A DNA stretch of 47,744 nucleotides, from assembly GCA_021807115.1 (NCBI GenBank), contig JAKAPJ010000009.1, positions 1 to 47,744 of the forward strand, written 5' to 3'. Positions 25,789-43,639 of this stretch are shown here, piece after piece. The position numbers and the translations under genes are program-made. The number at the start of each line of letters is the position of its first letter. Position 1 is the stretch's first letter. This stretch comes from Microcaldota archaeon. GTDB lineage: Archaea > Micrarchaeota > Micrarchaeia > Micrarchaeales > Micrarchaeaceae. The notes under the pieces were generated by a model. That model saw nothing but the letters and a program-made list of their open reading frames with translations, was not told where the DNA came from and ran no database searches.

Positions 25789-25804
25789 ATATCCGTAAGG
25801 ATAC
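25789..25804. promoter_or_regulatory. 16-bp palindrome ATATCCGTAAGGATAC upstream of the UbiA operon
   Basis: TATCC-GTAA-GGATA is a perfect inverted repeat, same layout as the site before the NADP oxidoreductase gene. It ends 6 bp before the TATA box ATAAAAATA (25811-25819). Confidence 0.6.
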
Positions 25805-25870: not shown

Positions 25871-26761
25871 ATGCCTACGGTAAGGGATTACATAACAGAG
25901 ATACTTGAGCCCACTATACTCATCAACACGTTCATAGCGCTCGGTGCGCTAGGTGCTGCGCTCCATTACGGGAAGGCGAGCCTATGGGTTGCACTGCTGT
26001 GCGTTGCGGGCGTAGCCCTCGCGCAGGTCGCTGTAAACCTAGTGGACGACTATGTGGATTTCACCACGGGATTGGACAACGATACCGTGAAGACCAAATT
26101 CAGCGGGGGGAGCGGATTGGTGGTGAGCGGGAGGGTGAAAGCAGGGCATGTGCTTGCGATAGGGACTTTGGCAGCCGCGGCTGCGGCATGCATAGGTGTC
26201 TACCTTGCATATTCGGTAACTATGGCTGTGCTGCCGTGGGTCGCAGTCGGGGCGGTGGCGATTTTCCTCTATGCAGGCTACGCCACCAAGATACCGTTCC
26301 TTGCTGAGCCGTTCGCCATGATGAGCTTTGTATCGGTAGGGATTGGCAGCTTCATAGCGATATCGGGCAACAGCCCGACATGGGCAATGGCGGCATACGG
26401 GCTGGTGCCTGCTGGGATGATGGGAGGGATAGCGCTGCTGGTGAACAATGTACCAGATAGGGCAGCCGACAGGAAGCACGGTAGGAGAAGCGGCGTGGTT
26501 ATGCTGTGGAAGCCAAGGAGGATAGCCGCATATTATGCGGTTTGCGAGGCGGTAGCGTACCTCCTTGTCCTGGCTGGGGTGGCCAGCGGCTCACTGCCTT
26601 TGACGCTGCTTGCGACTTTAATAACGGCACCTATCGCCCTGAAGGTTTTCAATGGGATTTCTAGCTACAGGAGCCCGGCGGCGTACGAGAGGTACATGGG
26701 AATGAACGTTGTTGGGGCATTCGCATTCATGCTGATAGTGGCAATGGCCTTTGCAGTGTAG
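25871..26761 (+). CDS. UbiA-family prenyltransferase (MenA-like)
   Basis: A 296-residue membrane enzyme with eight to nine helices. The first Asp-rich motif NLVDDYVDFTTGLD (about residues 56-69) and the second, NNVPDRAADRKHGRR, bind Mg and the prenyl diphosphate. The spacing and the YVDFTTGLDN context are like MenA (1,4-dihydroxy-2-naphthoate prenyltransferase), which would make demethylmenaquinone; UbiA relatives in archaea also make lipid ethers, so menaquinone is an inference. Its stop overlaps the next gene by one base, and both belong to one operon with the protease. The promoter carries the HxlR-type palindrome, and the neighbour is a quinone-oxidoreductase-like protein, which supports a quinone role. 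Confidence 0.85.
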   Translation: MPTVRDYITEILEPTILINTFIALGALGAALHYGKASLWVALLCVAGVALAQVAVNLVDDYVDFTTGLDNDTVKTKFSGGSGLVVSGRVKAGHVLAIGTLAAAAAACIGVYLAYSVTMAVLPWVAVGAVAIFLYAGYATKIPFLAEPFAMMSFVSVGIGSFIAISGNSPTWAMAAYGLVPAGMMGGIALLVNNVPDRAADRKHGRRSGVVMLWKPRRIAAYYAVCEAVAYLLVLAGVASGSLPLTLLATLITAPIALKVFNGISSYRSPAAYERYMGMNVVGAFAFMLIVAMAFAV

Positions 26762-27801
26762 TGGATAACGTGCGCGCGGTCGGTTTCAGGAGGTACGGGG
26801 GTCCGGAGGTCCTCGAGAGCATGAGCCTGCCAAGGCCGAGGCCCATGGAGGGGAACGCCATTGTGAGGCTGCTGTGCACGTCAGTAAACAGGATTGACAC
26901 GCTTGTGAGGAACGGCGGCAGGAACCTGCCGCTGGCAATGCCCCATGTGCCAGGCTGTGACGTAGTCGGGATAGTAGAAGAGATTAGGGGACGGAGCGAC
27001 GGGGTTTCGGTTGGGGATTTGGTTGTGGCAAATACATTATACGGATGCGGAGGATGCGCCAGCTGCAGGAATGGGGATGAGGTGTCGTGCAGCAGATGGA
27101 AGATGGTAGGGGTGGACATAAACGGGTCATACGAAGAGTTCGTAAGGGTCCCGACATCCACCCTTGTAAGGCCGCCTGGGCTGTTCAGTGCCGAGGAACT
27201 CGCCGCGATGCCGATAAGCCTTTCCATAGCGTGGAGGGCCCTGCGCGTGGTGGGAAAGGCCAAGAGGGGGGAAACTGTGGTGATAAGAGGCGCGTCGGGC
27301 AGCAGTGGGATATTCGGGCTCCTGCTTGCCAAGGCCATGGGGCTGAGGACTATAGCCGTCAGCAGGGACGCGATCAAGATGAAGAAGCTTAGGGAGATGG
27401 GGGCGGACATCGTAATTGGAGGAGGTGAGACGGAGGCCGGCATCGCAGACACAATACTTGGGGCCACGGATGGAGAGGGAGCTGACATAGTCATAGAACC
27501 GTTTGGCGCTACGCTGGCGCAGTCGATAAGGCTTGCAAGGCACGGGGGCAGGATAGTTGTGTATGGGGCATTGGCAGGCGCGGCGGCAAACATAGATATA
27601 AAGCAGCTGTACCTGAAGAATATAAGCGTTGCCGGGACCCACAACTCAAGCAGAGGCGAACTGAAGGAGGCAATGGGGTTTTTGGCCGAAATGAGGATAA
27701 GGCCAGTGATAGCGAAGGTGATGGGACTTGAGGAGGCGGCCAGGGCCCATTCGCTGCTGGAGGGCGGCAGGTGCTTCGGCAAGATATTGCTCAGGCCATA
27801 G
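26761..27801 (+). CDS. Zinc-containing MDR oxidoreductase, quinone-reductase-like
   Basis: A 346-residue medium-chain dehydrogenase/reductase. The N-terminal GroES-like part has VNRIDTLVRNGG and VPGCDVVG, the pattern of quinone oxidoreductases, without the GHE catalytic-zinc motif of alcohol dehydrogenases. The structural zinc lobe is kept (CGGCASCRNGDEVSC, about residues 97-111). The Rossmann part has GASGSSGIFGLLLAKAMG for NAD(P)H. Expected to reduce quinones or enones in the cytoplasm. It starts with GTG at 26761, sharing one base with the UbiA stop TAG, so it is translationally coupled. It is under the same palindrome-bearing promoter, as expected if the regulator senses quinones. Confidence 0.82.
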   Translation: MDNVRAVGFRRYGGPEVLESMSLPRPRPMEGNAIVRLLCTSVNRIDTLVRNGGRNLPLAMPHVPGCDVVGIVEEIRGRSDGVSVGDLVVANTLYGCGGCASCRNGDEVSCSRWKMVGVDINGSYEEFVRVPTSTLVRPPGLFSAEELAAMPISLSIAWRALRVVGKAKRGETVVIRGASGSSGIFGLLLAKAMGLRTIAVSRDAIKMKKLREMGADIVIGGGETEAGIADTILGATDGEGADIVIEPFGATLAQSIRLARHGGRIVVYGALAGAAANIDIKQLYLKNISVAGTHNSSRGELKEAMGFLAEMRIRPVIAKVMGLEEAARAHSLLEGGRCFGKILLRP

Positions 27802-28430
27802 GTGATAACACGGAAAAACTGTCTTACTATGCATATCTCGCGCTGCCACTAGCGCTGTGGCCGCTGTCATTCATAGTGCTGCGGTCGTCTTTCATTTATG
27901 CGATGTGCGCATCGACGTTCGTACTCGCATCCTTCTCCTTGATTAGGTACAGGGGGCGCATAAAATGGGGCACGCTGTCCCCCTCATCGCTCGCGGCGGG
28001 CGTTGTGGGCGCGGTGGTGCTGTACCTCCTCTTCCTGTTCGGCTACGTGGCGGCGCCGCTGGTCGGACTTTCAGGGTCCGTAGCAGGGGCGTTCGGGATG
28101 ATATACGCAGCAAACACCAAGGCCGAACTGGTGTTCCTGCTGGCGCTTATAGGCGTGTTCGAGGAAATATATTGGAGAGGGGGAATCCAGGGGATAGCGT
28201 CAGGGAAAGGCGGACTTATGGGGCGCATGCCATGGGCGGCAGCTGCCGCGTATTACACCTTGGTGCACATCTCCACGCTCAACCCAATACTTGTCATAGC
28301 TGCGCTGTTCGTAGGGCTCATGACGAGCCTGATAGCGCATAAGTACGGCATAATAGCATCCACACTCACGCACATACTGTGGATAGAGGCGATTATAGTG
28401 TTCCTGCCGCTTACCGCCCTTGCGCTCTAG
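27771..28430 (+). CDS. CPBP-family intramembrane protease (CAAX protease-like)
   Basis: A 219-residue protein with seven to eight hydrophobic helices. It has the diagnostic glutamate pair FEEIYWRGGIQG (EExxxR, about residues 126-137), a His in YTLVHIST, and THILW near the end, the metal/active-site pattern of the ABI/CPBP (Rce1-like) family. Substrate unknown. The only in-frame start that keeps the first helix is a GTG at 27771, after GGAGGGCGGCAG; this overlaps the MDR gene by 31 bases. It is the third gene of the UbiA operon and converges with the glyoxalase-fold gene, sharing 4 bases at the stops. Confidence 0.8.
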   Translation: MLRQDIAQAIGDNTEKLSYYAYLALPLALWPLSFIVLRSSFIYAMCASTFVLASFSLIRYRGRIKWGTLSPSSLAAGVVGAVVLYLLFLFGYVAAPLVGLSGSVAGAFGMIYAANTKAELVFLLALIGVFEEIYWRGGIQGIASGKGGLMGRMPWAAAAAYYTLVHISTLNPILVIAALFVGLMTSLIAHKYGIIASTLTHILWIEAIIVFLPLTALAL

Positions 28431-28834: not shown

Positions 28835-28969
28835 TGTATTCACCAATACATAATGCCATGAAAATTTAATAATATGATGCCGCACGTTGTTGTGGCGGGA
28901 CTGCTCGGTTACTTGATGGAATTGCGAAAAGCAGTTTTCAATTGCTATCAAAACGAATAGTGCTGTGCC

Positions 28970-29007: not shown

Positions 29008-30438
29008 ATGAAGGCTTCGGAGGGCAATAGCATACTGGACGACATAAAAGGGGTAATCGACGATTACACGATAAAGAGCGGGCCATCATACAGCAATAAC
29101 TTCTTTTTCACGATTGGGGTGTACCTTCTTGCGCTCTTCGGGCTGCTGGCCCTGACCGGAATAATAATGGTGCTCTTTGGCCCGTTCTGGTGGGACCTCA
29201 CGCCGGTGGGGACGTTCATACGCAGCATACACACATGGGCCGCTGAGGCGTTCGTCACATTGATATTCATACACCTCCTGGTGAACTTCAGCACCTCCGC
29301 CTTCAAGAACAGGAAGCTTATGTGGATGATAGGGTGTGCCATGCTCATGCTGGCCATGCTGGAGTTCGCATTCGGGGTTGGCATGGGAGGGAGCATAGTG
29401 GCGCAGGTCAACCAGCAGGCTGGCGCTGACCTTTGGAACGGCATGGGGCTGGGATACTGGATAAACCCGATGAACTCGGGGGCAGTGTTCGGCTGGCACG
29501 TAGCCGCAATACCGATAGTGCTTATAGTGCTGATGCTGCTGCACTACAGCGTAATGCGCAGGCGCGGGCTGAGCACGCCGTACAGGAGCGACATACCATA
29601 CACCACGGCGCACATAAACCACATGACCATGTACAAGAGAACTGCCTATGTTTTTGCGGTAGTGCTTGTGTTCGCTATACTGTTCAGGGCGCCTTACATC
29701 CCGCCGCTTACGATAAGCCAGGCTGCAACGCAGCAGCCCGATGCGGTTGCCAGCGCATTCCTGAACGAATCCAACATGTCATCCGCGACAGCCACGTACT
29801 TTGACACCATAGACCCGTACTCGTTCAGCACCAGGACGGTGTACGTGACTGATCCCTACTCGGTTTACCTCAACCTGACGCATTCGAAGAACTTGCAGGC
29901 GCAGTTCATGTCGGAGAGCGCTTCGCAGCAGAATGCCACGATGGCCGAGGCATACGCATACTTCCGGGCAAATGGCACAATCAAGGACGGCATGAATTCG
30001 TCAAACCCCATGATAGCACTCGCATCCGCTCTTACGTACATGTCCCAGACCGGCGCTTACCAGCCGATTCTGCAGAACGAGGTGGAGAGCGGCCTGAACA
30101 CCACATACGTGATAAGGTTCCTATATGATACTGGGGTGCTGTGGGATGTAGGGGCGCAGTACAACCTGAGCGTGCCGCAGTGGGGCATGATGAGCATAGG
30201 CGCGCCGAGCTGGTCGCTGCAATACTGGCTGTACCCGTACAACCTTATGCAGATAGACACGGCAAGCATGCCATGGTGGAGCGACTTGGAAAACGGATCG
30301 GTGGCCATTTTCGCCTTCATGGTCCTGCTTTTCTTGCCGTACATACCAGGGCTCAAGCAGCTGCCTGACAAGATAGGCCTCTACAAGCTGTTCTGGAACA
30401 AGTACACCGTTCCTGAAATGAAGAAAGGGAAAAAGTGA
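29008..30438 (+). CDS. Cytochrome b (b6-like heme pairs) with a large extracellular domain
   Basis: A 476-residue membrane protein. Four helices at about residues 32-58, 73-95, 103-126 and 159-183 form the heme-binding bundle. Heme ligands are visible: H75 and H89 (13 residues apart) and H164 and H179 (14 between); the 14-residue gap is the cytochrome b6 spacing, rather than the 13 of bc1. A fifth helix (about 211-228) is followed by about 195 residues of soluble, sequon-rich sequence outside the membrane and a last helix near 430-450. It should carry electrons from quinol across the membrane in a bc/b6f-like complex. No Rieske protein or other subunit gene is adjacent. The heme operon directly downstream could supply its heme. 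Confidence 0.85.
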   Translation: MKASEGNSILDDIKGVIDDYTIKSGPSYSNNFFFTIGVYLLALFGLLALTGIIMVLFGPFWWDLTPVGTFIRSIHTWAAEAFVTLIFIHLLVNFSTSAFKNRKLMWMIGCAMLMLAMLEFAFGVGMGGSIVAQVNQQAGADLWNGMGLGYWINPMNSGAVFGWHVAAIPIVLIVLMLLHYSVMRRRGLSTPYRSDIPYTTAHINHMTMYKRTAYVFAVVLVFAILFRAPYIPPLTISQAATQQPDAVASAFLNESNMSSATATYFDTIDPYSFSTRTVYVTDPYSVYLNLTHSKNLQAQFMSESASQQNATMAEAYAYFRANGTIKDGMNSSNPMIALASALTYMSQTGAYQPILQNEVESGLNTTYVIRFLYDTGVLWDVGAQYNLSVPQWGMMSIGAPSWSLQYWLYPYNLMQIDTASMPWWSDLENGSVAIFAFMVLLFLPYIPGLKQLPDKIGLYKLFWNKYTVPEMKKGKK

Positions 30439-30582: not shown

Positions 30583-30625
30583 GTTGGCGCAGGAGGCAAA
30601 ACTATCAATGCGGATACTGCCCTGC

Positions 30626-30633: not shown

Positions 30634-30716
30634 GCCAGTCCGCAAATGGTTTAATTGACTACACGGACCGACGACACCGGCGTGGCCGGATGCGCGGGCG
30701 GGGGGTCTGGGATTTT

Positions 30717-31751
30717 ATGGCTGGCAGGGATGGCATTTTCATCAGGGCGTGCAGGATGAAGAAAAGCAGCCGCACGCCGGTCTGGTTCATGAGGCAGGCG
30801 GGCAGGTTCCTGCCCGAATACAGGAAGCTAAGGAAGCAGTACGGATTCATGGACATAGTAAAGGACCCGAAGCTTGCCGCAGCGGTAACCCTCATGCCTG
30901 TGGAACGGCTCGGGGTAGATGCTGCGATACTGTTTTCCGACATCATGACCCCCTTGGAGGGGATGGGGGTGCGGTTCAGGATTGAGGACGGCATTGGGCC
31001 TGTTGTGGATGCGCCGGTGAGGGACTTCTATGATGTGGAGTCGCTGCGCGAACTGGATCCCTATGAGTCCACCGCTTTTGTGATGGAGGCAGTAAGGCGC
31101 TCGAAAAGGGCCCTGCACGGCAGGACGCCTCTTATAGGGTTCGCAGGCGCGCCGTTCACCCTGGCGACATACCTGGTTGAAGGGAAAAGATCCGAAGACC
31201 TCTCTGTCACAAAGTCTTTCATGCACAGCAAAAGCGACGCATGGCACGCGCTCATGGAACGCCTGGCTGCCGCTTCTGCCGAATACCTTTCCGCGCAGGT
31301 GCTGTCTGGTGCAGATGCGGTGCAGCTGTTCGACAGCTGGGCAGGCGGCCTCAGCCCCGCGGACTACGAGGAATACGTCCTTCCTTATGTAAAGGACATT
31401 TTCAGGCGCCTGAGGGGCATGGAGGTACCGACCATATACTTCAGCACTGGCACATCGGTAATGCTTGATTCAGTGGGGAGGACCGGTGCGAATGTTATAA
31501 GCGTGGACTGGCGCATAGACATAGGGGATGCATGGGATAAGATAGGCAAGAAGGCGCTGCAGGGCAACCTTGACCCTGCGCTCATGCTATGCGACATCAA
31601 GACAATAAGGGAGAGGGCGGGTAGGATACTTGATAGGGTGGGCGGGAGGCCTGGTCACATATTCAACCTCGGGCACGGGATGCCGCCTACGACCCCGGTT
31701 GATAACGCAGCAGGGCTGGTAAGCGCGGTGCACGAATACGGTGCGCACTGA
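30717..31751 (+). CDS. hemE: Uroporphyrinogen decarboxylase
   Basis: A 344-residue cytoplasmic enzyme that removes four carboxyl groups from uroporphyrinogen III to give coproporphyrinogen III. The signature RTPVWFMRQAGRFLPEYRKLR (about residues 17-37) holds the two Arg that bind substrate carboxylates. AILFSDIMTPLEGMG contains the catalytic Asp, and GFAGAPFTLATYLVEG and the late HIFNLGHGMPPTTP (catalytic-region His) are also kept. The ATG at 30717 follows a purine-rich GGGGGTCTGGG; an upstream ATG at 30690 would add nine residues outside the family. First gene of the nine-gene heme operon. Confidence 0.95.
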   Translation: MAGRDGIFIRACRMKKSSRTPVWFMRQAGRFLPEYRKLRKQYGFMDIVKDPKLAAAVTLMPVERLGVDAAILFSDIMTPLEGMGVRFRIEDGIGPVVDAPVRDFYDVESLRELDPYESTAFVMEAVRRSKRALHGRTPLIGFAGAPFTLATYLVEGKRSEDLSVTKSFMHSKSDAWHALMERLAAASAEYLSAQVLSGADAVQLFDSWAGGLSPADYEEYVLPYVKDIFRRLRGMEVPTIYFSTGTSVMLDSVGRTGANVISVDWRIDIGDAWDKIGKKALQGNLDPALMLCDIKTIRERAGRILDRVGGRPGHIFNLGHGMPPTTPVDNAAGLVSAVHEYGAH

Positions 31752-31760
31752 GGTGGTAGC

Positions 31761-32699
31761 ATGGGTAATGTGGCTGGAATTATAATGATGGCGTACGGGT
31801 CTCCGGATTCGCCTGACGACATCGTGCCGTATCTTGCAGACATTAAGGCCAGATACGCAAGGAAAGGCACGCATGCAGGTCCGACGGAGGAAGAGATAGC
31901 CAGGCTGCGCCGCCGCTATGGGGCCATAGGCGGCCTGTCGCCGTTCAACCGCATCACTAATGAGCAGGCGGGGGCGCTGCGGGCCGAGCTGGAGCGGCGG
32001 GGGGTGCAGTCCAATGTATACATAGGGATGAAGCATTGGAAGCCGAAGATATCGGATGCCGTATCGCAAATTGTGCGTGACGGAGTAGGAAGCTTGACTG
32101 CGCTGCCCATGGCGCCATACTATTCCACGATGAGCACTGAAGGGTATAGGATGGACCTTGAGGCTGCGCTCGAAGGCGAAGGGGCGAAACCTGAGATAAG
32201 ATTCATAAGGGATTGGCACATGAATGGCGCGTTCATAGATTCCTGGTCCGAAAGCCTGCGCGCGGCGATCAGGGCAATGCGGACCACGGTTGACGACACC
32301 CGCATAGTCTTTACCACCCACAGCCTGCCTAGCGCGATATTGAAGATCAAGGACCCGTACCCTGCACAGTTTGCAGAGACTGCCGCAGCCGTTGCCACGG
32401 CAGTGGGATCGAAGAACTGGTCAATCGCTTACCAGAGCGGCGGGGGGCGGGACGGATGGCTTGGCCCGGACATAACGGCGGTGCTGGAGGGGCTGGTTTC
32501 GTCAGGGGGCGGCAACGTGCTCGTAGCGCCGATAGGCTTCGTGGCCGAGAACCTTGAGACAATGTATGACATAGACATAGAGTGCGTCCGCACGTTCAAG
32601 GGGCGCGGGCTGAATATATCAAGGGCCGCTGCGCCAAACGCATCGCCGCGCTTCGTGGATGCTCTCGTTTCTGTGGTGACCGGGGTGGAACGCGCATGA
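31761..32699 (+). CDS. hemH: Ferrochelatase, Bacillus-type (coproporphyrin ferrochelatase-like)
   Basis: A 312-residue enzyme that inserts Fe(II) into a porphyrin. It is close in pattern to Bacillus subtilis HemH/CpfC: MAYGS near the start (metal-site Tyr), RYGAIGGLSPFNRIT, YIGMKHWKPKI, FTTHSLP with the catalytic His, WLGPDI, and PIGFVAENLETMYDID with the catalytic Glu. In that bacterial group the substrate is coproporphyrin III rather than protoporphyrin IX, so with the oxidase encoded next in the operon the product is probably coproheme. It starts 9 bases after hemE and overlaps hemC by 4 bases. The symbol cpfC may be more exact. Confidence 0.93.
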   Translation: MGNVAGIIMMAYGSPDSPDDIVPYLADIKARYARKGTHAGPTEEEIARLRRRYGAIGGLSPFNRITNEQAGALRAELERRGVQSNVYIGMKHWKPKISDAVSQIVRDGVGSLTALPMAPYYSTMSTEGYRMDLEAALEGEGAKPEIRFIRDWHMNGAFIDSWSESLRAAIRAMRTTVDDTRIVFTTHSLPSAILKIKDPYPAQFAETAAAVATAVGSKNWSIAYQSGGGRDGWLGPDITAVLEGLVSSGGGNVLVAPIGFVAENLETMYDIDIECVRTFKGRGLNISRAAAPNASPRFVDALVSVVTGVERA

Positions 32700-33634
32700 T
32701 GCAATTGAGGATAGGCACAAGGGGCAGCAGGCTGGCGCTGATACAGACAGGGACAGTTGCAGGGCTCCTCAAGGCAAAGGCCGGAATCGACTCGGTTCCG
32801 GTGGTCATAAAGACAGCAGGGGACATCGACCAGGGCAGGCCCCTATTCGGCATGGGGGGAAAGGGCATATTCGAAAAGGAGATAGACGCCGCTGTGCTGA
32901 ACGGTGAGGTGGACATGGCGGTGCATAGCACGAAGGACCTACCTACATCGATGGATGGCGGGCTGGTTATAGCTGCGGTGCCAGAGAGGGCTGCGGCAAA
33001 CGATGTACTCATTTCCAGAGGTGGGACCATGCTCGAAGACCTGAAAGAGAAGTCTGTCATAGGCACAAGCAGCCTGCTCAGGATAGCCGAGCTCAGGCAC
33101 ATGAGAGACGACCTCAGGGTGAAGTCGATACGCGGCAATGTCGAAACGCGCATAGCCAAGCTTGACAGGGGCGACTACGATGCCATACTGCTTGCAGAGG
33201 CAGGTGTGCGCAGGCTGGGGCTTGGCGGCAGGATAACGCAGGTCCTGCCGCTGGGGGATTTCCCGCCGGCAGCCGGGCAGGGCGCGCTTGCCGTGGTGGC
33301 GGCGGAGGAAAACGCCGAGGTAATGATGGCGCTGAGGGAGCTGAATGACAGGAATGCCATGGCCGAGGTGACCGCCGAACGCGCGGCGACCGGCACGCTT
33401 GGGGGGGGCTGTGAGGCTTCCGTGGCATCCATAGCCAGAGCGGAGGGAGGTTCGCTCACGCTTAGCTGCAGCGTATTCTCCGTAGACCCAAAAAAGGTGC
33501 TTACTGCCTCGTTGACCGGGGCCGCTGACAGCGCTGAGGAACTGGGTATCAAGGCCGGAAATGACCTGGCCTCAAGGGGCGCGGGCAGGGTGATGGATGA
33601 GTGGCGCGTTAGGGAGAAAGGTGCTTACGAATGA
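32696..33634 (+). CDS. hemC: Hydroxymethylbilane synthase (porphobilinogen deaminase)
   Basis: A 312-residue enzyme joining four porphobilinogens into hydroxymethylbilane. Motifs: RIGTRGSRLALIQT at the N-terminus, HSTKDLPT with the catalytic Asp, RGNVETRIAKLDRGDYDAILLAEAGVRRLG, and GGGCEASVAS with C239, which carries the dipyrromethane cofactor. The ATG at 32696 sits in the ATGA overlap with the hemH stop; a second ATG follows directly at 32699. The stop overlaps hemD by 4 bases. Confidence 0.95.
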   Translation: MMQLRIGTRGSRLALIQTGTVAGLLKAKAGIDSVPVVIKTAGDIDQGRPLFGMGGKGIFEKEIDAAVLNGEVDMAVHSTKDLPTSMDGGLVIAAVPERAAANDVLISRGGTMLEDLKEKSVIGTSSLLRIAELRHMRDDLRVKSIRGNVETRIAKLDRGDYDAILLAEAGVRRLGLGGRITQVLPLGDFPPAAGQGALAVVAAEENAEVMMALRELNDRNAMAEVTAERAATGTLGGGCEASVASIARAEGGSLTLSCSVFSVDPKKVLTASLTGAADSAEELGIKAGNDLASRGAGRVMDEWRVREKGAYE

Positions 33635-34425
33635 TTGAGGGCAAGGTCATAGCAGTAACTAGGGCAGACGAGGGGCAGGCCGAGGTGTCCAGAATAATTT
33701 CGGAAATGGGCGGCATACCGTTCAACATACCGGTTGTCGAGTTTGAGGGGACAGGATGTGCAGGCGCAGTCAGGGTGCTGGTAGGGGACATAATGGAGGG
33801 CAGGGTGGATTATCTGGTGTTCCTGAGCTGGAACGGCTTCAGGTACATGCTCGATGCAGCAGGAGATGGGCGCTCAGAGGCAATTGCGGCAATAAGGGAA
33901 AAGACCGTTGTGGCGGCGGTAGGTCCGGCCACTGCAGGCATGATAATGAAGGCAGGGGTAGAGGTAGGGGTGACTGCGGAAAACAGCATGGCAGAGGGGA
34001 TTGCGCATGCGCTGGCTGGCAGGGGCATTGCGGGAAAGCGCATTGCGGTGATAAGGAACGAGGCAGGAGGCGGAGGTCTGGGCGGGATGCTTTCCGGTGC
34101 CGGGGCGCAGGTCACTGAGATAGCGACATACAGGACTGTGGCCCCGAAATTCTGCGGAGCCCTGGGGCAGTTCATAGAGAAGGCTTCGGTTGGGGGGATT
34201 GACGCGGTTGTATTCGGCAGCCCGCTGGCCGCGGCAAACATGGTTGGTATGATGTCCGGATCAGTGGGCCGGGAAAGGGCGAGGGGAATCCTGGGTGGTA
34301 TGGTTATAGCCGCAATTGGGAGGTCTACGGAGGCCAAGCTTGCGGAGCTTGGCTTGAGGGCCGATGTCGTACCTGACAAGCCCGGGTTCAGGAACGTGAT
34401 AGCGATGCTGGCGGGGCGGTTGTGA
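33631..34425 (+). CDS. hemD: Uroporphyrinogen-III synthase
   Basis: A 264-residue enzyme that closes hydroxymethylbilane with inversion of ring D. The family diverges strongly, but the fold is clear: two Rossmann-like lobes starting GKVIAVTRADEGQAEVSRIISEMGG and KRIAVIRNEAGGGGLGGMLSGAGAQVTEIATYRT, the motif VVFGSPLAAANM for Thr/Ser-type substrate contacts, and a C-terminal IAAIGRSTEAKLAELGL (GxxTA-like). Position between hemC and hemA supports it. ATGA overlap with hemC; the stop shares bases with the hemA start. Confidence 0.92.
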   Translation: MIEGKVIAVTRADEGQAEVSRIISEMGGIPFNIPVVEFEGTGCAGAVRVLVGDIMEGRVDYLVFLSWNGFRYMLDAAGDGRSEAIAAIREKTVVAAVGPATAGMIMKAGVEVGVTAENSMAEGIAHALAGRGIAGKRIAVIRNEAGGGGLGGMLSGAGAQVTEIATYRTVAPKFCGALGQFIEKASVGGIDAVVFGSPLAAANMVGMMSGSVGRERARGILGGMVIAAIGRSTEAKLAELGLRADVVPDKPGFRNVIAMLAGRL

Positions 34426-35609
34426 TGGATATAGCAAGCATGCATGCAACATTCAGGAAGATGAAGCTTGCGGAGCTTGAGAAATGGACAAAGCTTGCCC
34501 CTGAAGATCTGGGCAGGGCGATGAAGAATGCATCGGTGCACGAATGGGCGTTGCTCAGGACGTGCAACCGCTTTGAGGTCTATGCTGCTGCGCCTTCAGC
34601 CGCGAGGTTCAGGGACGCGTTGGGCGCCCTCGCTGACAGCATGGGCACGCACAACATTTACTTCCTTGAGGGTGTGGAATCCCAGAGGCATCTGATGGAA
34701 GTGTGCTCGGGCCTGGATTCCATGGTCGTTGGCGAGCAGGAGATCCAGCGGCAGGTCAAGGAATCGCTTGGGGCGGCGCAGAAGGAGGGGCGCTGCGGCA
34801 AGACCATCAACTACATGTTCATGAAGGCGATAAGCACGGGCAAAGAGGTTAGGGAGAAAACTGCCGTAACGAGGGGTGTGGTGTCAATACCGCAGGCGGT
34901 TGCCAGGGTGGTGGCGGGGCATAAAGGCATTGGTAGCGTGTGCGTGGTCGGCACCGGACAGATGGCGAAGAGCGTTATGGGCAGCCTCAGGGGCGCAGGA
35001 TTTAGCATGACGGTGTGCGGGAGGAGGGAGGGGAAGGCGAGGGAGCTTGCAGCGCTCTTCTCGGCACGGGCATCAGGGATGGAAGGGCTTGACCCGTCAC
35101 GGTTCGATGTTGTAATAACTGCAGTATCCGCACAGTGCCCAGTGCTGCACATGGCCGGGGGAGACATGCCGCGGCTGGTGATAGACATGGGCAACCCTCG
35201 CAACGTGGAGGGCGCATGGGATGGCCAGTACGTGTCGCTCGACGACCTGAAGAAGCATGTGCACAGGAACATGAAGGTAAGGAAGGGGGATGTGAGGAAG
35301 GCAAATGAGATAATTTCGAGGAACGCGGCTTCGGCGGGGGAGAAACTTAGGATGATGGATGCAGAGGCTGTGATATCGCAGATGTATATGAACGCGGAAA
35401 GGGCCAGGGCTTCGGCAACAGCCAGGGCCCTGACATCCATTGGGGAGGAGCACAGGCGCACGGTGGATGATATGACCAGGTCCCTCACAAACGCGATACT
35501 TGCGGACCAGACCGCCAGGATAAAGAGCGTGCTGTGCAGCGGCGACAAGGCTAAGATAGCCGCCCTTATGGAGATATACGGGGGCGGCGGGTCGGGTGGG
35601 AAGGAATGA
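34425..35609 (+). CDS. hemA: Glutamyl-tRNA reductase
   Basis: A 394-residue NADPH enzyme that makes glutamate-1-semialdehyde from Glu-tRNA, the committed C5 step. LLRTCNRFEVYA holds the catalytic C47; SGLDSMVVGEQEIQRQVKES is the next family signature, followed by the Rossmann motif VVGTGQMAKSVM and the C-terminal helical dimer region. The ATG at 34425 forms TGATG with the hemD stop; a GTG three bases earlier is an alternative. Its presence shows that 5-aminolevulinate comes from the C5 pathway rather than from glycine and succinyl-CoA. Confidence 0.95.
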   Translation: MDIASMHATFRKMKLAELEKWTKLAPEDLGRAMKNASVHEWALLRTCNRFEVYAAAPSAARFRDALGALADSMGTHNIYFLEGVESQRHLMEVCSGLDSMVVGEQEIQRQVKESLGAAQKEGRCGKTINYMFMKAISTGKEVREKTAVTRGVVSIPQAVARVVAGHKGIGSVCVVGTGQMAKSVMGSLRGAGFSMTVCGRREGKARELAALFSARASGMEGLDPSRFDVVITAVSAQCPVLHMAGGDMPRLVIDMGNPRNVEGAWDGQYVSLDDLKKHVHRNMKVRKGDVRKANEIISRNAASAGEKLRMMDAEAVISQMYMNAERARASATARALTSIGEEHRRTVDDMTRSLTNAILADQTARIKSVLCSGDKAKIAALMEIYGGGGSGGKE

Positions 35610-37030
35610 GGGATATTGTGGTCATAGGAGGGGGCATATCAGGGCTTTCCGCAGCATACTATATCAGGAAACTGGCCGCAGGCAGCGGTACTGAGGTGAA
35701 TGTGACACTGCTGGAGGAGGGGGGGAGGACAGGCGGGAAGATACGCACGGATTTTGATGGAGGGTTCTTGGTTGAGGGCGGACCGGATTCCGTGATGGCG
35801 TCCAGAGGTCGTTTCATGGAACTGTGCGAGGAGCTGGGGATATGGGGGCGCGTTATCGCGCCCAGTGCGCAGAATGGCGGCACGTTCATATTCTTAGACG
35901 GCGCGCTAAAGAAGATCCCTTCCGGCATGACGCTTATGCTGCCTACGAGCATCGGCAGCCTTGCGGTGTCGGACATAATATCCTACAAGGGTAAGGCAAG
36001 GTCGGCGATGGAGGTGCTCGTGCCGAGAAGGACGGATGACTTGGACGAATCAGTGGCGAGCTTCGTTAGGAGGAGGTTCGGCGCGGAGGTGTACGAGAGG
36101 ATGGCGGAGCCCATAATCAGCGGAATACATTCTGGAAATCCGGAGATCACCAGCACAAAGTGCACATTCCCGCTTCTGCGCAAGATGGAGGCTGAGCACC
36201 GCAGCATCATAATCGGTATGCTCAAGTCTAGGAAAGGGGGCAAGAAGGGCGGCGCGGGCTTCGTCTCCTTTGACGGGGGAATGGCCTGCCTAGTGGCGGC
36301 GCTGGAGGCCGCAGTTGGCAAGCCTGCAATACGTACGAATTCACGCGCATGCAGGGTATCTGTGGATAGCGGGAGGGACGGGCTGGGGCGCGGCTACCAT
36401 ATAGGTATGGATGACGGCACATCGATACATGCGGATGCGGTGGTTTTCGCCACCCCTGCATTTGTCACCTCATCCCTTCTGGAGGGAATTGACAGGGGGC
36501 TGGCCAGCCTGCTGGCTGGTATACCCTATAACACTATAGCCACCGTGTCTTTGGCTTACAGGGAGGACAGCATGCCGGGCGGGGCGCAGGGCGCGGGATT
36601 CCTTGTGCCAAGGATAAGCGGCATGAGGCTTGCCGCCGCCACGTGGAGCTCGTCCAAATGGGCTGGGAGGGCGCCGGAGGGCCACTACCTGATAAGGTGC
36701 TACTTCAGCGGTGCGTACCAGGACGGGAGGGTGGCAATGGACAATGACGCGCTTGTGAGGGCGGCGGAGGAGGACCTGCGCACGGTGATGGGTGTGACTG
36801 CGAGGCCGGTGCTGGCCAAGGTGTACATATGGCGCAATGGCATGCCCCACTACACATTGGGGCACGATGAGAGAGTGGCTTCCATAGCCGCCGCTGCCGC
36901 GGCGCATGGCGGCATCTTCGTAATTGGTGCATGGAAGGGCGGCGCCGGTGTGCCCAGCTGCATAAGCGGGGCGTACGAGGAGTCCAGGCTCGTGGTGGAC
37001 TACATTTCTGGTTTGGAGGTGCGAAAATGA
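35606..37030 (+). CDS. hemY: HemY-type coproporphyrinogen/protoporphyrinogen oxidase
   Basis: A 474-residue FAD flavoprotein. The N-terminus IVVIGGGISGLSAAYYIRKL is the dinucleotide-binding fold, then EEGGRTGGKIRTDFDGGFLVEGGPDSVMA, the flavin/substrate loop of the HemY/PPOX family, and near the end GIFVIGAWKGGAGVPSCISGAYEES for FAD. It uses O2 to oxidise the porphyrinogen; the Gram-positive relatives (CgoX) act on coproporphyrinogen III. With the Bacillus-type ferrochelatase in the same operon and no HemN/HemF, coproporphyrinogen is the likely substrate. Overlaps hemA and the radical SAM gene by 4 bases each (ATGA). Confidence 0.9.
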   Translation: MRDIVVIGGGISGLSAAYYIRKLAAGSGTEVNVTLLEEGGRTGGKIRTDFDGGFLVEGGPDSVMASRGRFMELCEELGIWGRVIAPSAQNGGTFIFLDGALKKIPSGMTLMLPTSIGSLAVSDIISYKGKARSAMEVLVPRRTDDLDESVASFVRRRFGAEVYERMAEPIISGIHSGNPEITSTKCTFPLLRKMEAEHRSIIIGMLKSRKGGKKGGAGFVSFDGGMACLVAALEAAVGKPAIRTNSRACRVSVDSGRDGLGRGYHIGMDDGTSIHADAVVFATPAFVTSSLLEGIDRGLASLLAGIPYNTIATVSLAYREDSMPGGAQGAGFLVPRISGMRLAAATWSSSKWAGRAPEGHYLIRCYFSGAYQDGRVAMDNDALVRAAEEDLRTVMGVTARPVLAKVYIWRNGMPHYTLGHDERVASIAAAAAAHGGIFVIGAWKGGAGVPSCISGAYEESRLVVDYISGLEVRK

Positions 37031-38175
37031 CAACAGGTGGAACTCACGGAGGACATCAGGGCGGCGCGCACGGCATGGATTTCTCAAGCAAGCCTGTCCT
37101 TGTTTTCTGGGAGACGACAAAGGCGTGCATGCTGGCATGCAGGCACTGCAGGGCCTCTGCGATACATACGCAGCTGCCCGGTGAGCTCACCACCGACGAA
37201 GGGCGCATGCTCATAGACCAGATTGCATCGTTTGGAGGGCCGGCGCCGGTTGTAGTATTCACAGGAGGGGATCCCCTTATGCGCGGCGACATCTTCGAAC
37301 TGCTCGAATACGCTAAGCGTGCCGGGTTGAAGTTTGCGGTCTCACCGGCGGTCACAGGGCTACTCACAAGGGAGAAGCTTGAGAAGCTGCGGGACGCAGG
37401 AGTCACATCGATATCTGTAAGCCTAGACGGCGCATGCAGCGGCACTCATGACGGAATAAGGACGGTGGATGGCACATTCGATTGCACTCTGGAGGTGATG
37501 AGGGACGCGGTTGACATCGGCTTGGGGATACAGGTAAATACTACGGTGATGAAGAGGAACATAGGGGAGCTTGCCAGGATATTCCACCTGATAAAAGGCA
37601 TAGGAATAAGGACGTGGGAGGTGTTCTTCCTCATAAAGGTTGGCAGGGGGGCGGAACTGGAGGAGCTCGACCCTGCCGCCTACGAGAGCTCGTGCAACTT
37701 CCTGTACGACGCATCTAAGTACGGGATGGTGGTAAGGACGGTGGAGGCGCCTTTCATGCGCAGGGTGGCGAAGATGAGAGAGGGGGGACTGTACTGGGCA
37801 GACAAACGCTACACTGCCCTGCACGATGAGCTCGTCGCGCTGGAAGGCGAGCCGACCTTCTCATCCACCATATCACCGCGCGGCACGCTTGACGGGGACG
37901 GGATAGTGTTTGTGGGATACGACGGCGCGGTATACCCTGGCGGCTTCCTGCCGGAGAGGGTGGGTAACGTAAGGGAGGGCAACATAGTGCAGCTTTACCG
38001 TGAAAACCCGATAATGAGGGACATAAGGGAAAGGAGGATGGAGGGAAAGTGCGGGGGCTGCGGCTATAGGGCGGCGTGCGGCGGAAGCAGGGCGCGGGCG
38101 TATGCCGCCTGCGGCAATCCGCTTGCATCGGATCCTGCATGCATGCTCGTCGCAGCTGACAGCATCGGGCACTGA
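37027..38175 (+). CDS. Radical SAM/SPASM protein, probable coproheme decarboxylase (AhbD-like)
   Basis: A 382-residue iron-sulfur enzyme. The radical SAM cluster motif is C34-x3-C38-x2-C41 (TKACMLACRHCRAS), followed by VVFTGGDPLMRGD and SISVSLDGACSGTHD. The C-terminus has a SPASM-like auxiliary cluster set: C342, C345, C351, C362, C372. The layout and the stretch WEVFFLIKVGRGAEL match, as I recall, the TIGR04053-type proteins related to AhbD, which converts Fe-coproporphyrin III to heme. In this operon the last step, normally done by HemQ/ChdC, has no other candidate. The N-terminus (residues 4-16) is a Gly/His-rich tail that might bind metal. The ATG overlaps the hemY stop. Confidence 0.85.
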   Translation: MTTGGTHGGHQGGAHGMDFSSKPVLVFWETTKACMLACRHCRASAIHTQLPGELTTDEGRMLIDQIASFGGPAPVVVFTGGDPLMRGDIFELLEYAKRAGLKFAVSPAVTGLLTREKLEKLRDAGVTSISVSLDGACSGTHDGIRTVDGTFDCTLEVMRDAVDIGLGIQVNTTVMKRNIGELARIFHLIKGIGIRTWEVFFLIKVGRGAELEELDPAAYESSCNFLYDASKYGMVVRTVEAPFMRRVAKMREGGLYWADKRYTALHDELVALEGEPTFSSTISPRGTLDGDGIVFVGYDGAVYPGGFLPERVGNVREGNIVQLYRENPIMRDIRERRMEGKCGGCGYRAACGGSRARAYAACGNPLASDPACMLVAADSIGH

Positions 38176-38189
38176 ATTGGTTGATTAGT

Positions 38190-39476
38190 ATGGCGGGATA
38201 CAAAACCTCAAGGAGGCTCTATGCAATTGCCAAAAGGGTAATGGTTGGAGGGGTGAGCAGCCCTGTCAGGGCCTTCCAATCGGTGGGCGGGGGGCCTCTG
38301 TTCCTGGATAGGGGGCGCGGGCCGTGGATATGGGATGTGGACGGCAACCGCCTGCTGGATTACGTATGCTCGTGGGGCGCCCTGATACTGGGGCATGCAA
38401 ACAGGAGGGTAGCAGGAAGGGCCGCACGCGCAGTTGCGGCAGGGTCGAGCTTCGGTGCACCTACTGTGCCGGAGCTCATGATGGCGAGGGAGATAAAAAA
38501 GCGCATGAGGTCCATGGAGAAGGTAAGGTTCGTCAACTCGGGAACAGAGGCCACAATGTCAGCCGTACGGCTCGCCAGGGCGTATACGAAACGCGCCAAG
38601 GTGATAAAATTTGACGGCTGCTACCATGGGCATGCGGACCAGTTCCTTTCCGGGGCGGGGTCGGGCCTTGCCACACTTGGCATACCCCAATCAGCAGGAG
38701 TCCTGCCGGGCGCGGTGAGGGACGTGGTTACGCTGCGGTACAATGACATTGAGGCGCTGGACGGGGCTTTTGGCAGGATGGGGAATGATATAGCCGCGGT
38801 TATCGTGGAGCCGGTCGCAGGGAACATGGGAGTCGTGCCGGCGCGGCGGGGGTTCCTTGAGGCGGCGAGGAGGCTGTGCACGGAAAACGGGTCGCTGCTG
38901 ATATTCGATGAGGTGATAACAGGTTTCAGGGTGGGGCCGCACGGGGCGCAGGGACTGTACGGCATAAGGCCCGACATAACGTGCCTTGGCAAGATAATAG
39001 GAGGGGGATTTCCTGTGGGGGCATACGGCGCTGGCCGCAGGATAATGGACCTTGTGGCGCCAAACGGTCCTGTTTACCAGGCAGGAACGTTGTCAGGAAA
39101 CCCTGTTGCCATGGCTGCTGGACTGGCAACACTGTCGCTGCTGGACAGGAGTGCTTATGCGAGGTTGGAGAGGCAGTCGGGCGACTTGGAGCGGGGTATA
39201 GCTGATGCCGCGGCGCGGAGCGGCGTGGACATGGAAGTAAACAGGGTTGGCTCCATGCTGGGGGTCTTCTTCACCGGCAGGCATGTAGAGAACTTTGACG
39301 ATGCGAAGCTTACGGACCCGAAACTGTTCAGGAAGTTCTTCTGGGGCATGCTTAGGAATGGGGTGTACCTGCCGCCTTCGCGGTTCGAATCCATGTTCGT
39401 CTCCACATCTCACGGCGAGGGCCAGATAGGGATGACGGTGGATGCCGCTGGAAGGGTAATGGAGGGGTTGCGGTGA
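38190..39476 (+). CDS. hemL: Glutamate-1-semialdehyde 2,1-aminomutase
   Basis: A 428-residue PLP enzyme that turns glutamate-1-semialdehyde into 5-aminolevulinate. Signatures: GGVSSPVRAFQSVGG, VRFVNSGTEATMSAVRLARAYT, FDGCYHGHAD, IFDEVITGFRVG, and CLGKIIGGGFPVGAYG with the PLP Lys at about residue 268, as expected for the family. The frame opens at a TTG at 38181; the ATG at 38190 with GGTTGAT before it fits the family start. It lies 14 bases after the radical SAM stop and its stop is followed by hemB with overlapping frames. Confidence 0.95.
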   Translation: MAGYKTSRRLYAIAKRVMVGGVSSPVRAFQSVGGGPLFLDRGRGPWIWDVDGNRLLDYVCSWGALILGHANRRVAGRAARAVAAGSSFGAPTVPELMMAREIKKRMRSMEKVRFVNSGTEATMSAVRLARAYTKRAKVIKFDGCYHGHADQFLSGAGSGLATLGIPQSAGVLPGAVRDVVTLRYNDIEALDGAFGRMGNDIAAVIVEPVAGNMGVVPARRGFLEAARRLCTENGSLLIFDEVITGFRVGPHGAQGLYGIRPDITCLGKIIGGGFPVGAYGAGRRIMDLVAPNGPVYQAGTLSGNPVAMAAGLATLSLLDRSAYARLERQSGDLERGIADAAARSGVDMEVNRVGSMLGVFFTGRHVENFDDAKLTDPKLFRKFFWGMLRNGVYLPPSRFESMFVSTSHGEGQIGMTVDAAGRVMEGLR

Positions 39477-39493
39477 TTTGGATGGAGGGTGGA

Positions 39494-40474
39494 ATGGCTA
39501 GCAGAATAGGCCAAAGGATGAGGAGGCTGAGAAATAACGATGTGCTGCGGGGCATGCTGAGCGAGACTAGGCTGGATGCCGGGGAATTTGTCGCTCCGGT
39601 GTTTGTGAGGCACGGCAGGCACGTTGTGGAAGAGGTAGGCGCGATGCCGGGCGTACACAGGTACTCGCATGACACTGTGGGCAGGTATGCTGCGCAGCTT
39701 GCCGACTGCGGGATAAAGTCCATGCTCATTTTTGGCATACCTAAGTCCAAGGACAGCGTGGGCTCGCACGCGTACGCGAGCAGCGGGGTCGTGCCTGCGG
39801 CCATAAGGGCCGTGCATGATAGCGTGCCGTCCATGGTCGTGATGGCTGACGTGTGCCTTTGCGAGTACACGGCCCATGGGCACTGCGGGGTGCTTAAGGG
39901 GAGGAATGTTGACAATGACAGGACGCTGCCGCTACTGGCTAGGGCTGCGGTGCAGTACGCCAAGGCAGGGGCGGACGTGGTGGCGCCAAGCGCAATGATG
40001 GACGGGCAGGTGGCTGCGATAAGGGCAGGACTTGACCTGCATGGATACGAAGACACTCTCATCATGGGGTATTCCGCAAAGTATGCATCTTCATTCTACG
40101 GGCCGTTCAGGTCCGCCGCGGGCTCCGCGCCGTCGTTCGGAAACAGGAGGTCGTACCAGATGAACCCAGCAAACGCCAGGGAGGCGATGCGGGAGATAGA
40201 ACTTGACATAAGGGAGGGCGCCGACATGGTGATGGTCAAGCCGGCCATTGGGTTCCTTGATGTCATATCGGAGGCGAGGAAGCGCTTTGACGCACCGCTT
40301 GTTGGCTACAATGTAAGCGGGGAGTATGCGATGGTGAAGGCGGCTAGCCAGAACGGCTGGCTGGACGGCATGGCCGCGGCGGAGGAGATACTGATGTCAA
40401 TAAAGAGGGCGGGGGCTGATCTTGTGATAACATATCATGCAGAAGAGCTGGCCCGCCACATGAAGGGCAAGTGA
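39494..40474 (+). CDS. hemB: Delta-aminolevulinic acid dehydratase (porphobilinogen synthase)
   Basis: A 326-residue TIM-barrel enzyme that condenses two 5-aminolevulinates. The zinc-binding motif DVCLCEYTAHGHCG has the three Cys of the zinc-dependent type. The two active-site Lys are K196 (YSAKYASSFYGPF) and K249 (MVMVKPA). The frame is open from a GTG at 39473 overlapping hemL, but the ATG at 39494 follows GGAGGGTGG and matches the usual N-terminus RMRRLRNNDVLRGMLSETRL. Last gene of the heme operon; it converges with the NADP oxidoreductase 10 bases later. Confidence 0.95.
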   Translation: MASRIGQRMRRLRNNDVLRGMLSETRLDAGEFVAPVFVRHGRHVVEEVGAMPGVHRYSHDTVGRYAAQLADCGIKSMLIFGIPKSKDSVGSHAYASSGVVPAAIRAVHDSVPSMVVMADVCLCEYTAHGHCGVLKGRNVDNDRTLPLLARAAVQYAKAGADVVAPSAMMDGQVAAIRAGLDLHGYEDTLIMGYSAKYASSFYGPFRSAAGSAPSFGNRRSYQMNPANAREAMREIELDIREGADMVMVKPAIGFLDVISEARKRFDAPLVGYNVSGEYAMVKAASQNGWLDGMAAAEEILMSIKRAGADLVITYHAEELARHMKGK

Positions 40475-40484: not shown

Positions 40485-41201
40485 CTACTTGGCATTGGTG
40501 CGGCGCACAGGGTGCTGGTGCACCGCAGGCTGCCCCAGTTCCCCTGTTACGAGCTTGAATCCTATTTTCGTCCCCATCCTCTGCGCGAATGCTAGGGAGA
40601 TATTGAGCAGGCCTAGCGGCTCGAGGTATCTCGCGGCCTTGAGGGGGCCCGCGTCAATCGCTTCGAACCCGATGTCCTGCGCAAGCCGGATTACCTCTGA
40701 TCTGCTCTTTTGGTCGTCGCCGCATGCGAACATCGTGAGTTTTGTGCCGTGCAGCACACCTGTGCTCATGTGCTCCGCGAATATGGTGTTGAACGCCTTC
40801 ACCACGTTTGTTTTTGGCAGCATCTTGGAAAGCTCCTCCGCACCGGAAGTGGTGAAGCCTATTGCCAGGTCAAGGTTGCGCGTTATTGCGTTTGTCACGT
40901 CAACCACGGTCTTGTTCCTGAACTTCGCAGGTCCTATCCCAATTACCGTATCTCTTACTGAAGAGAAGGGCACGGCAATTATCACAATACTTCCGGCAGC
41001 CACGGCTTCGGACTGGGGTTTTATCATGACATTCTTTGGTAGCCTCTCCATCCGATCCATGACATCGTTCGGATGCCTTGACCCGAGCACAACGGAGTAG
41101 CCGGCCCTTGAAAGGCCCCTTGCAAGGTTTAGGGCCACCTGCCCGGTTCCTATGATGCCTATGGTAGTGTCTGTCTGTTGCAATGCGTGTTCGTCCTGCA
41201 T
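40485..41201 (-). CDS. NADP-dependent oxidoreductase of the F420H2:NADP/STEAP-like family
   Basis: A 238-residue Rossmann protein: IGIIGTGQVALNLARGLSRAGYSVVLGSR binds NADP (SR after the second strand fits the 2'-phosphate), then VIIAVPFSSV, VVDVTNAITRN, and VVKAFNTIFAEHMSTG, the signature of the COG2085 family that contains F420H2:NADP oxidoreductase and the STEAP reductase domain. Whether F420 or a flavin is the partner cannot be read from this. The promoter (TATA at 41243-41251) carries a perfect 16-bp palindrome 8 bp upstream, and the HxlR-family regulator is the next gene upstream, so it is a likely member of that regulon. Confidence 0.85.
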   Translation of the reverse strand: MQDEHALQQTDTTIGIIGTGQVALNLARGLSRAGYSVVLGSRHPNDVMDRMERLPKNVMIKPQSEAVAAGSIVIIAVPFSSVRDTVIGIGPAKFRNKTVVDVTNAITRNLDLAIGFTTSGAEELSKMLPKTNVVKAFNTIFAEHMSTGVLHGTKLTMFACGDDQKSRSEVIRLAQDIGFEAIDAGPLKAARYLEPLGLLNISLAFAQRMGTKIGFKLVTGELGQPAVHQHPVRRTNAK

Positions 41202-41259
41202 TCAAATCACTGAAGCTTGCGCCCCTTTGATTTGTGTTTTGTATATTAAAAAGAAGCGA

Positions 41260-41275
41260 GTATCCGACGGGATAC
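41260..41275. promoter_or_regulatory. 16-bp perfect palindrome GTATCCGACGGGATAC
   Basis: GTATCC-N4-GGATAC, exact inverted repeat, 8 bp upstream of the minus-strand TATA box ATATTAAAA (41243-41251) of the NADP oxidoreductase gene. The best match in the set, used here as the reference. Confidence 0.65.
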
Positions 41276-41331
41276 CATTGGAACAGGGGAGTTTGTCGGC
41301 GCGATTAAGCATGGGTGCCAGGGGGGCTTTA

Positions 41332-41778
41332 TCAGGATGACTTGGCGGAGGGCTTCCCGAAGACATTGCAGGCACTGCACTTTATGTACTTGCAGTACGA
41401 GTTCATCCCATACCAGCAAATTCCGACTTCCTTTGCCTTCTTTATAACTCCCGCAACGGCCTCGCCCTTCTTTGTGAGCGCATACTCAGTGTGGAGCACG
41501 TTTCCCTCCCACCTTTCGCCCTTGCTTATTACGGACGTGGCGTAGAGGTCCTTGAGGCACTTGCTGAGATTCCTAGGTGTTATTCCCCCGACAGAGGACT
41601 GCAAATCGTTGAAGGAAACCTTGTTGCCGGAGAAGTAGAGCTCTTCGAGGACTGGCACTGTCCACTTCTTGCCCAGCAGCCTCATCATGCTCAGTGTTGG
41701 GCATTTTGGCTTGGTATCGGCCCTTGGCATGGCGCAGCTTGATGTTATTACGCTATCCATTCTGATATCGCCAGCCAT
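41332..41778 (-). CDS. HxlR/DUF24-family winged-helix regulator with Cys-rich tail
   Basis: A 148-residue regulator. The core, KCPTLSMMRLLGKKWTVPVLEELYFSGNKVSFNDLQSSVGGITPRNLSKCLKDL, is the HxlR winged helix. Cys26 in KCP sits where YodB/HypR-type redox sensors have their reactive Cys, and Cys15 lies upstream. The tail GICWYGMNSYCKYIKCSACNVF has four more Cys and may bind a metal or form disulfides. The ATG at 41778 follows AGGTGA; a GTG at 41802 opens the same frame. Its promoter is flanked by two palindromes (41808-41823 between TATA and start, 41843-41858 upstream), as expected for autoregulation. Likely controls the seven-site set described in the findings. Confidence 0.83.
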   Translation of the reverse strand: MAGDIRMDSVITSSCAMPRADTKPKCPTLSMMRLLGKKWTVPVLEELYFSGNKVSFNDLQSSVGGITPRNLSKCLKDLYATSVISKGERWEGNVLHTEYALTKKGEAVAGVIKKAKEVGICWYGMNSYCKYIKCSACNVFGKPSAKSS

Positions 41779-41807
41779 TGTTTCACCTACGTACTTTCTC
41801 ACAATTG

Positions 41808-41823
41808 GTATACTGTAGGATAC
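41808..41823. promoter_or_regulatory. Palindrome GTATACTGTAGGATAC over the regulator start region
   Basis: It lies between the minus-strand TATA box (41828-41836) and the expected transcript start near 41806, so binding would block its own promoter. The extended form GGTATAC-TGTA-GGATACC is 18 bp. Confidence 0.6.
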
Positions 41824-41842
41824 CTAGTATTTAAATGTGCTA

Positions 41843-41858
41843 GTACCCTTACAGGTAT
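41843..41858. promoter_or_regulatory. Palindrome GTACCCTTACAGGTAT upstream of the regulator TATA box
   Basis: Same half-sites, placed 6 bp upstream of the TATA box at 41828-41836; matches the usual position of this element before the other promoters. Confidence 0.55.
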
Positions 41859-41883
41859 TGCTTGCATGCGTGGATGCGGACTG

Positions 41884-41899
41884 CTACCTAGTTGGGTAC
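41884..41899. promoter_or_regulatory. Palindrome CTACCTAGTTGGGTAC upstream of small RNA copy 2
   Basis: TACC-N6-GGTA inverted repeat, 8 bp upstream of the plus-strand TATA box ATAAATAT (41908-41915) that drives the small RNA. Confidence 0.55.
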
Positions 41900-41936: not shown

Positions 41937-42030
41937 TGAGAAGGCGCAGATGCGTGGGCGAAATTGCAGGATTTCGGATTTGCCTTCCTGTGCGATAAAG
42001 GCGCACCTTCCCCACCCACGCATGCTTTTT
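41937..42030 (+). ncRNA. Structured small RNA, copy 2
   Basis: The predicted transcript starts TGAGAAGGC at 41937, 26 bases from the TATA centre. Closing stem ATGCGTGGG/CCCACGCAT (41950-41958 with 42015-42023), inner hairpin CGAAAT-TGCAGG-ATTTCG (41959-41976), linker TTGCCTTCCT, hairpin GTGCG-ATAAAGG-CGCAC (41990-42006), then CTTCC before the closing strand. A T5 run at 42026-42030 follows the stem. Compared with copy 1, the last pair of the second hairpin changes from A-T to G-C, keeping the pairing. A 75-residue frame runs through it, but it is not conserved in copy 1. Confidence 0.68.
42026..42030 (+). terminator. T-run after small RNA copy 2
   Basis: GCTTTTTATC directly after the closing stem; oligo-T is the known archaeal termination signal. 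Copy 1 has only a TTT at the matching place. Confidence 0.45.
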
Positions 42031-43623: not shown

Positions 43624-43639
43624 GTATCAAGCTTGATAC
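43624..43639. promoter_or_regulatory. Perfect palindrome GTATCAAGCTTGATAC upstream of the copper operon
   Basis: Exact 16-bp inverted repeat with the outer GTATC/GATAC of the HxlR-type set but AAGCTT in the middle. It lies between the divergent KaiC-like and copper genes. A second inverted repeat, CGGTT-GTT-AACCG (43645-43657), follows directly. It may belong to the same regulator or to a separate metal sensor. Confidence 0.45.

Follow-up and report, generated by a model that had tools for sequence, protein, structure and literature searches.

Respiration, redox cofactors and small RNAs in a predicted HxlR-family regulon of a micrarchaeon

Introduction

One 16-bp palindrome recurs next to TATA boxes on a contig from a genome whose relatives are Candidatus Micrarchaeota, and one of the genes behind it encodes an HxlR-family regulator. 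Which genes does the palindrome serve, is HxlR the protein that reads it, and to which signal would the system respond? The original prediction, made from seven sites, described a local regulon that is activated from upstream of TATA and may answer to quinone or thiol stress. We compared the locus with related genomes and with known regulators of bacteria and archaea. The window analyzed here is the whole contig of 47.7 kb; the genome has a size of 1.18 Mb (1,175,990 bases) and is ~86% complete.

Results

A foreign origin of the contig, or contamination, was ruled out because other Micrarchaeota have proteins 71-73% identical to its cytochrome b, and because its heme operon has kept its synteny in three relatives (G031, G249 and G250). 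The contig also carries a bacterial-type uvrB-uvrA-uvrC repair cluster (3651-9936), within a small archaeal genome, and two very large ORFs at 10539-15251 (1570 aa) and 22446-25766 (1106 aa). These two ORFs had no Pfam match and possibly encode surface proteins.

All seven palindromes were recovered, and the predicted local regulon built on them is larger than first described. Pattern searches and 360 kb taken from elsewhere in the genome supplied the background. The exact pattern GTAYC-N6-GRTAC occurred five times in the genome, and four of these sites were on this contig (P ~1.3e-5 for such clustering). Relatives have ~2 perfect palindromes per genome and, therefore, the number of perfect sites alone is no proof. 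With up to two mismatches, the window contained 66 sites where 46 were expected, a modest excess. Three sites had been overlooked: a perfect palindrome at 43624..43639 (GTATCAAGCTTGATAC), which has a KaiC-like gene on one side, YHS/CopA copper genes on the other and no TATA in register, and two promoter sites at 28945 and 30602, in front of cytochrome b and the heme operon, respectively.

The motif was rebuilt from the flanks of HxlR homologs of other Micrarchaeota, leaving out the DNA of the window. All 5+5 palindromes with spacers of 0-8 were ranked against Markov simulations (n = 120). The top palindrome around the HxlR genes of the relatives was TATCC-N4-GGATA with a z of 8.2, while the best of the 120 simulations reached 5.1. 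CTATC-N6-GATAG and GTATC-N6-GATAC, both in register with it, were also among the top eight. This supports HxlR as the likely protein of the regulon. The matrix trained on the relatives, whose flanks contain some cytochrome b promoters, had the consensus NANTATCNNNNNNGATANTN, and its top matches in the window were 25789, 30602, 15538, 41808, 41753, 28945, 41260, 41884, 3496 and 43624; the site at 41843 scored slightly below these ten. At a score of at least 12 there were 10 matches in the window against 1.7 expected from the 360 kb elsewhere in the genome. We regard the match at 41753, within the HxlR gene, as probably due to chance.

Conservation in relatives that keep HxlR held in part. The motif tops the HxlR flanks, and hemE of G031, which was outside the training set, has a site and a TATA in the same arrangement as in the window. 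No clear site was found at cytochrome b in the HxlR-bearing genomes G051, G052 and G059, or at hemE in the HxlR-bearing genomes G052, G038 and G029. Some HxlR-negative genomes scored above 11 in AT-rich upstream DNA (G001, 15.8; G028, 12.4; G017, 11.8).

The sites and their spacing to TATA can be read directly from the sequence. TATA-like, AT-rich 8-mers were present 3-11 bp from nine of the ten window matches scoring at least 12, the match at 41753 being one of the nine, as compared to 12.6% of random positions. With a stricter TATA matrix, the best TATA was 7-10 bp away at six of nine promoter sites (25789, 28945, 30602, 41260, 41843 and 41884), and 1.2% of random positions of the genome had their best TATA at 5-10 bp. 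In relatives, the TATA was found at 7-9 bp for 11 of 16 sites. The position just upstream of TATA, on which the original prediction had relied, is the usual one in the window and in its relatives alike.

The HxlR gene itself (41332..41778, minus strand) starts with an ATG at 41778, with a possible GTG-start reading from 41799. Its promoter follows the order site, TATA, site: on the minus strand, a palindrome at 41843..41858 precedes the TATA TTTAAATA (41828-41835, offset 7), and a second palindrome at 41808..41823 (score 16.6 with the relative-trained matrix) lies between TATA and start codon, a predicted autorepression position that had been proposed before. The same layout recurs at the cytochrome b promoters of G002, G198 and G199, and in G248/G249 the site is found only downstream of TATA.

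The other genes that had been assigned to the regulon were placed behind sites as well. On the minus strand, the perfect palindrome at 41260..41275 precedes the TATA TTAATATA (41242-41249, offset 10) of an NpdG-like NADP/F420 oxidoreductase gene (40485..41201), which scored 60.9 bits with Pfam F420_oxidored and 70.7 bits with NCBIfam npdG, under the cut-off of 149.8. On the plus strand, the palindrome with the top score in the window (25789..25804, score 18.1) is followed by the TATA TAAAAATA (25812-25819, offset 7) and by genes that domain searches assigned to a UbiA prenyltransferase, a quinone-reductase-like zinc dehydrogenase and a CAAX-protease (25871..28430). A further perfect palindrome on the minus strand (3496..3511) stands before the short, unassigned unit at 3457, for which the site and its TATA-like word TAAATATC (3479-3486, offset 9) are the sole support; a word further on outscores this TATA-like word.

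The list of served genes was incomplete, since cytochrome b and the heme operon were missing from it. Both are on the plus strand. The site at 28945..28960 (score 14.1) lies 63 bp before the ATG of the cytochrome b gene (29008..30438) and has the TATA CTAAAAAT at 28969-28976 (offset 8). The site at 30602..30617 (score 17.0), with the TATA CATAAATA at 30625-30632 (offset 7), precedes a nine-gene heme operon (30690..40474) of hemE, hemH, hemC, hemD, hemA, hemY, a radical SAM gene, hemL and hemB. The first eight were identified by Pfam/NCBIfam and hemB by sequence and syntenic homologs. The operon includes protoporphyrinogen oxidase and a TIGR04053 radical SAM protein; in the studied micrarchaeon Mia14, of the same phylum, heme synthesis and the greater part of respiration are missing (PMC5498576). 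With these additions, the predicted window regulon comprises HxlR, the NpdG-like oxidoreductase, the UbiA, quinone-reductase-like and CAAX-protease genes, cytochrome b, the nine-gene heme operon and two small RNAs.

A similar gene content was found around HxlR in relatives. The regulator gene adjoins cytochrome b in G031, G002, G035, G198 and G199, the heme operon in G031, G249 and G250, and the anaerobic ribonucleotide reductase NrdD in G018, G038, G050, G187, G188 and G189. In G250, three sites stand before a Rieske-cytochrome b-TatC operon. The genes associated with the sites and with HxlR fell into a respiratory group (heme, cytochrome b, Rieske, UbiA) and an anaerobic one (NrdD), with a single quinone-reductase-like gene, and the detoxification genes expected of YodB/QsrR sensors of quinones and electrophiles were not found as a set in the window or in the HxlR neighborhoods of relatives. 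Judged by gene content, the theme of the regulon is respiration and oxygen status and not detoxification.

The regulator belongs to the HxlR/DUF24 winged-helix proteins (Pfam HxlR, 43.2 bits, cut-off 20.8), and both profile comparison and its predicted fold (mean pLDDT 84) matched it to YodB, QsrR and HxlR. Its orthologs have four invariant cysteines, Cys26 and a C-terminal CX4CX2C (Cys 129, 134 and 137), and the same pattern was present in Aenigmatarchaeota orthologs. Cys26 is the conserved N-terminal cysteine before the first helix that is typical of the family. The CX4CX2C tail extends beyond the reach of the matches to the solved HxlR, YodB, QsrR and HypR structures, and no match above cut-off was obtained to the redox-sensing RrpB subfamily of HxlR proteins (NCBIfam NF047364, 20.9 bits, cut-off 175). 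Such a set of cysteines hints at a thiol switch more complex than usual or at a site for a metal or an Fe-S cluster. The same genome contains a second HxlR-like gene (G000:C27:32647-32949) without the conserved cysteines. Its homology continues beyond a TGA in frame, and the gene may be a paralogue in decay.

The two small RNAs of the original prediction are copies of each other and share their core with RNAs of other genomes. Copy A (41937..42023, plus strand) follows a palindrome at 41884..41899 with the TATA CATAAATA at 41907-41914 (offset 7). Copy B (15418..15501, minus strand) follows a palindrome at 15538..15553 (score 16.8) with the TATA-like word TATATACT at 15521-15528 (offset 9), which is outscored here by a second such word farther away, at offset 28. 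The copies are 81% identical over 88 columns. Their core, CCUUCC-hairpin-CCUUCC, was found beside HxlR in G007 and G239, with an upstream site scoring 18.6-20.0 and a TATA, and around 1400-1600 in contigs of G042 and G044, with neither a site nor a detectable HxlR. In G042 the CCUUCC-hairpin unit occurs twice in tandem. No Rfam 15 family exceeded its gathering threshold anywhere in the window, including the small RNAs, and the family with the CCUUCC core is previously undescribed.

The pairing of the hairpin has been maintained despite sequence changes, as seen by direct comparison of six copies; a MAFFT alignment shifted the hairpin by one base. A conserved 5' GAAGGY is predicted to pair with box 1 (RCCUUC), and the last pair is C with G in the window copies, U with A in G042/G044 and broken in G007/G239. 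The reading as a small protein was dropped because of frame-changing indels between copies A and B, the absence of an AUG in G007/G239 and the kept hairpin pairing. Target prediction among the window genes gave no coherent set; the best candidate was a HAD gene, and cytochrome b had a p of ~0.07. A weak match in G052 was rejected as an apparent protein-coding stretch without the CCTTCC core. In G059, a site and a TATA downstream of HxlR (704-960) are followed by a longer, strongly folding predicted transcript, possibly a diverged form of the small RNA.

Discussion

The sites in the window probably belong to an HxlR-run regulon for respiration and redox cofactors, in which the regulator would activate from upstream of BRE/TATA, repress its own gene and respond to oxygen, redox state or iron. 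HxlR, probably as a dimer, would bind immediately before BRE/TATA, at the 16-bp palindrome STATC-N6-GATAS, and help to recruit TBP/TFB at the promoters of cytochrome b, the heme operon, the UbiA-oxidoreductase operon, the NADP oxidoreductase, the two small RNA copies and HxlR itself. Once abundant, it would occupy the second site between its own TATA and start and repress itself. The signal, most likely oxygen, redox state or iron, would be received through Cys26 and CX4CX2C, which may together hold a metal or an Fe-S cluster, and the small RNA would probably act on mRNAs through its paired CCUUCC segments.

Activation by HxlR is the predicted direction that we favor, and the argument for it is the promoter geometry together with the analogy to archaeal activators. 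For archaeal TrmB-family regulators, a site location upstream of BRE/TATA is associated with activation and a downstream one with repression (PMC4158304), and CopR of P. furiosus has a similar site-promoter geometry (PMC7830388). Ptr2, TFB-RF1, TrmBL1/Tgr and CopR share with the micrarchaeal system a semi-palindrome placed at constant spacing directly before BRE/TATA (offsets 7-10 bp in the window), and downstream sites going with repression (PMC4158304, PMC7830388). In contrast to them, the micrarchaeal regulator comes from another protein family, and its activation is predicted.

If HxlR worked in the way of YodB or QsrR, as a classical repressor for thiol/quinone stress, it would block TFB/TBP or RNA polymerase beside BRE/TATA until quinones or disulfide stress modified its cysteines and released the genes. 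We regard this as unlikely. Its family membership and conserved N-terminal cysteine, and YodB working through Cys6 and Cys101 (PMC8063818), are compatible with such a mechanism, but the CX4CX2C tail falls outside the matches to the QsrR, YodB, HypR and HxlR structures. One operon does include a quinone-reductase-like gene, but the neighbors are otherwise heme, cytochrome b, Rieske and NrdD genes and not detoxification enzymes. The site downstream of TATA in G248/G249 would suit a repressor, whereas most sites precede TATA by a fixed distance, and this spacing leaves the BRE free. The operator also differs from the TACT-N7-AGTA of YodB (PMC8063818). Quinone or thiol stress, as originally suggested, is therefore not supported as the signal; oxygen, redox state or iron, possibly sensed at a metal or Fe-S site, appears to fit better because the linked genes are respiratory or anaerobic and four cysteines are invariant.

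The palindrome might also be the operator of a different, unlinked regulator, with HxlR merely among its targets. The presence of the small RNA in genomes without HxlR would agree with this, but the RNA copies of these genomes have no site, the motif ranks first among palindromes exactly in the surroundings of HxlR genes, in many genera, and the HxlR promoter itself has two sites; we therefore consider it improbable. Chance palindromes in AT-rich promoters, to which the modest excess at two mismatches and the ~2 perfect sites per genome could be attributed, are most improbable of all and are already contradicted by the independent recovery from relatives, the fixed TATA spacing and the clustering.

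The HxlR-run regulon proposed here shares with the known HxlR/DUF24 regulators (YodB, QsrR, HypR and HxlR) the winged helix, the conserved N-terminal cysteine, a palindromic operator and a predicted autoregulation of linked genes. It differs from them in the CX4CX2C tail, the respiratory gene set, the small RNAs as predicted targets and the archaeal BRE/TATA promoters. FNR and other bacterial Fe-S regulators of the oxygen and iron response have four conserved cysteines, and their gene set joins respiration, heme and anaerobic ribonucleotide reductase. The micrarchaeal regulator resembles them in cysteine count and gene set, while its protein family is unrelated and its cluster binding is hypothetical. 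The iron-sparing RNAs IsrR and FsrA, whose C-rich segments target Shine-Dalgarno regions, are likewise short RNAs that have unpaired C-rich segments beside hairpins and stand under a regulator tied to respiration or iron (PMC9410917); the micrarchaeal RNA is archaeal and has no sequence homology to them.

A wider reading, which we offer tentatively and think more likely wrong than right, is that a DPANN-specific four-cysteine HxlR would be an FNR- or Fur-like master switch with an Fe-S or metal site. It would set heme and cytochrome b respiration or the anaerobic supply of DNA precursors in response to oxygen or iron, and would reach translation as well by driving small RNAs of a new archaeal family that act in trans. 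Among the papers searched, none treated DPANN archaea together with a regulon and small RNAs. At this locus, the regulator, its operator, the promoter geometry and a predicted co-regulated small RNA family can all be deduced from genome sequence and cross-checked in relatives. Because site and TATA are uniformly spaced, archaeal activation can be tested cleanly in vitro, and the set of four cysteines points to a testable new sensing mode for the HxlR family.
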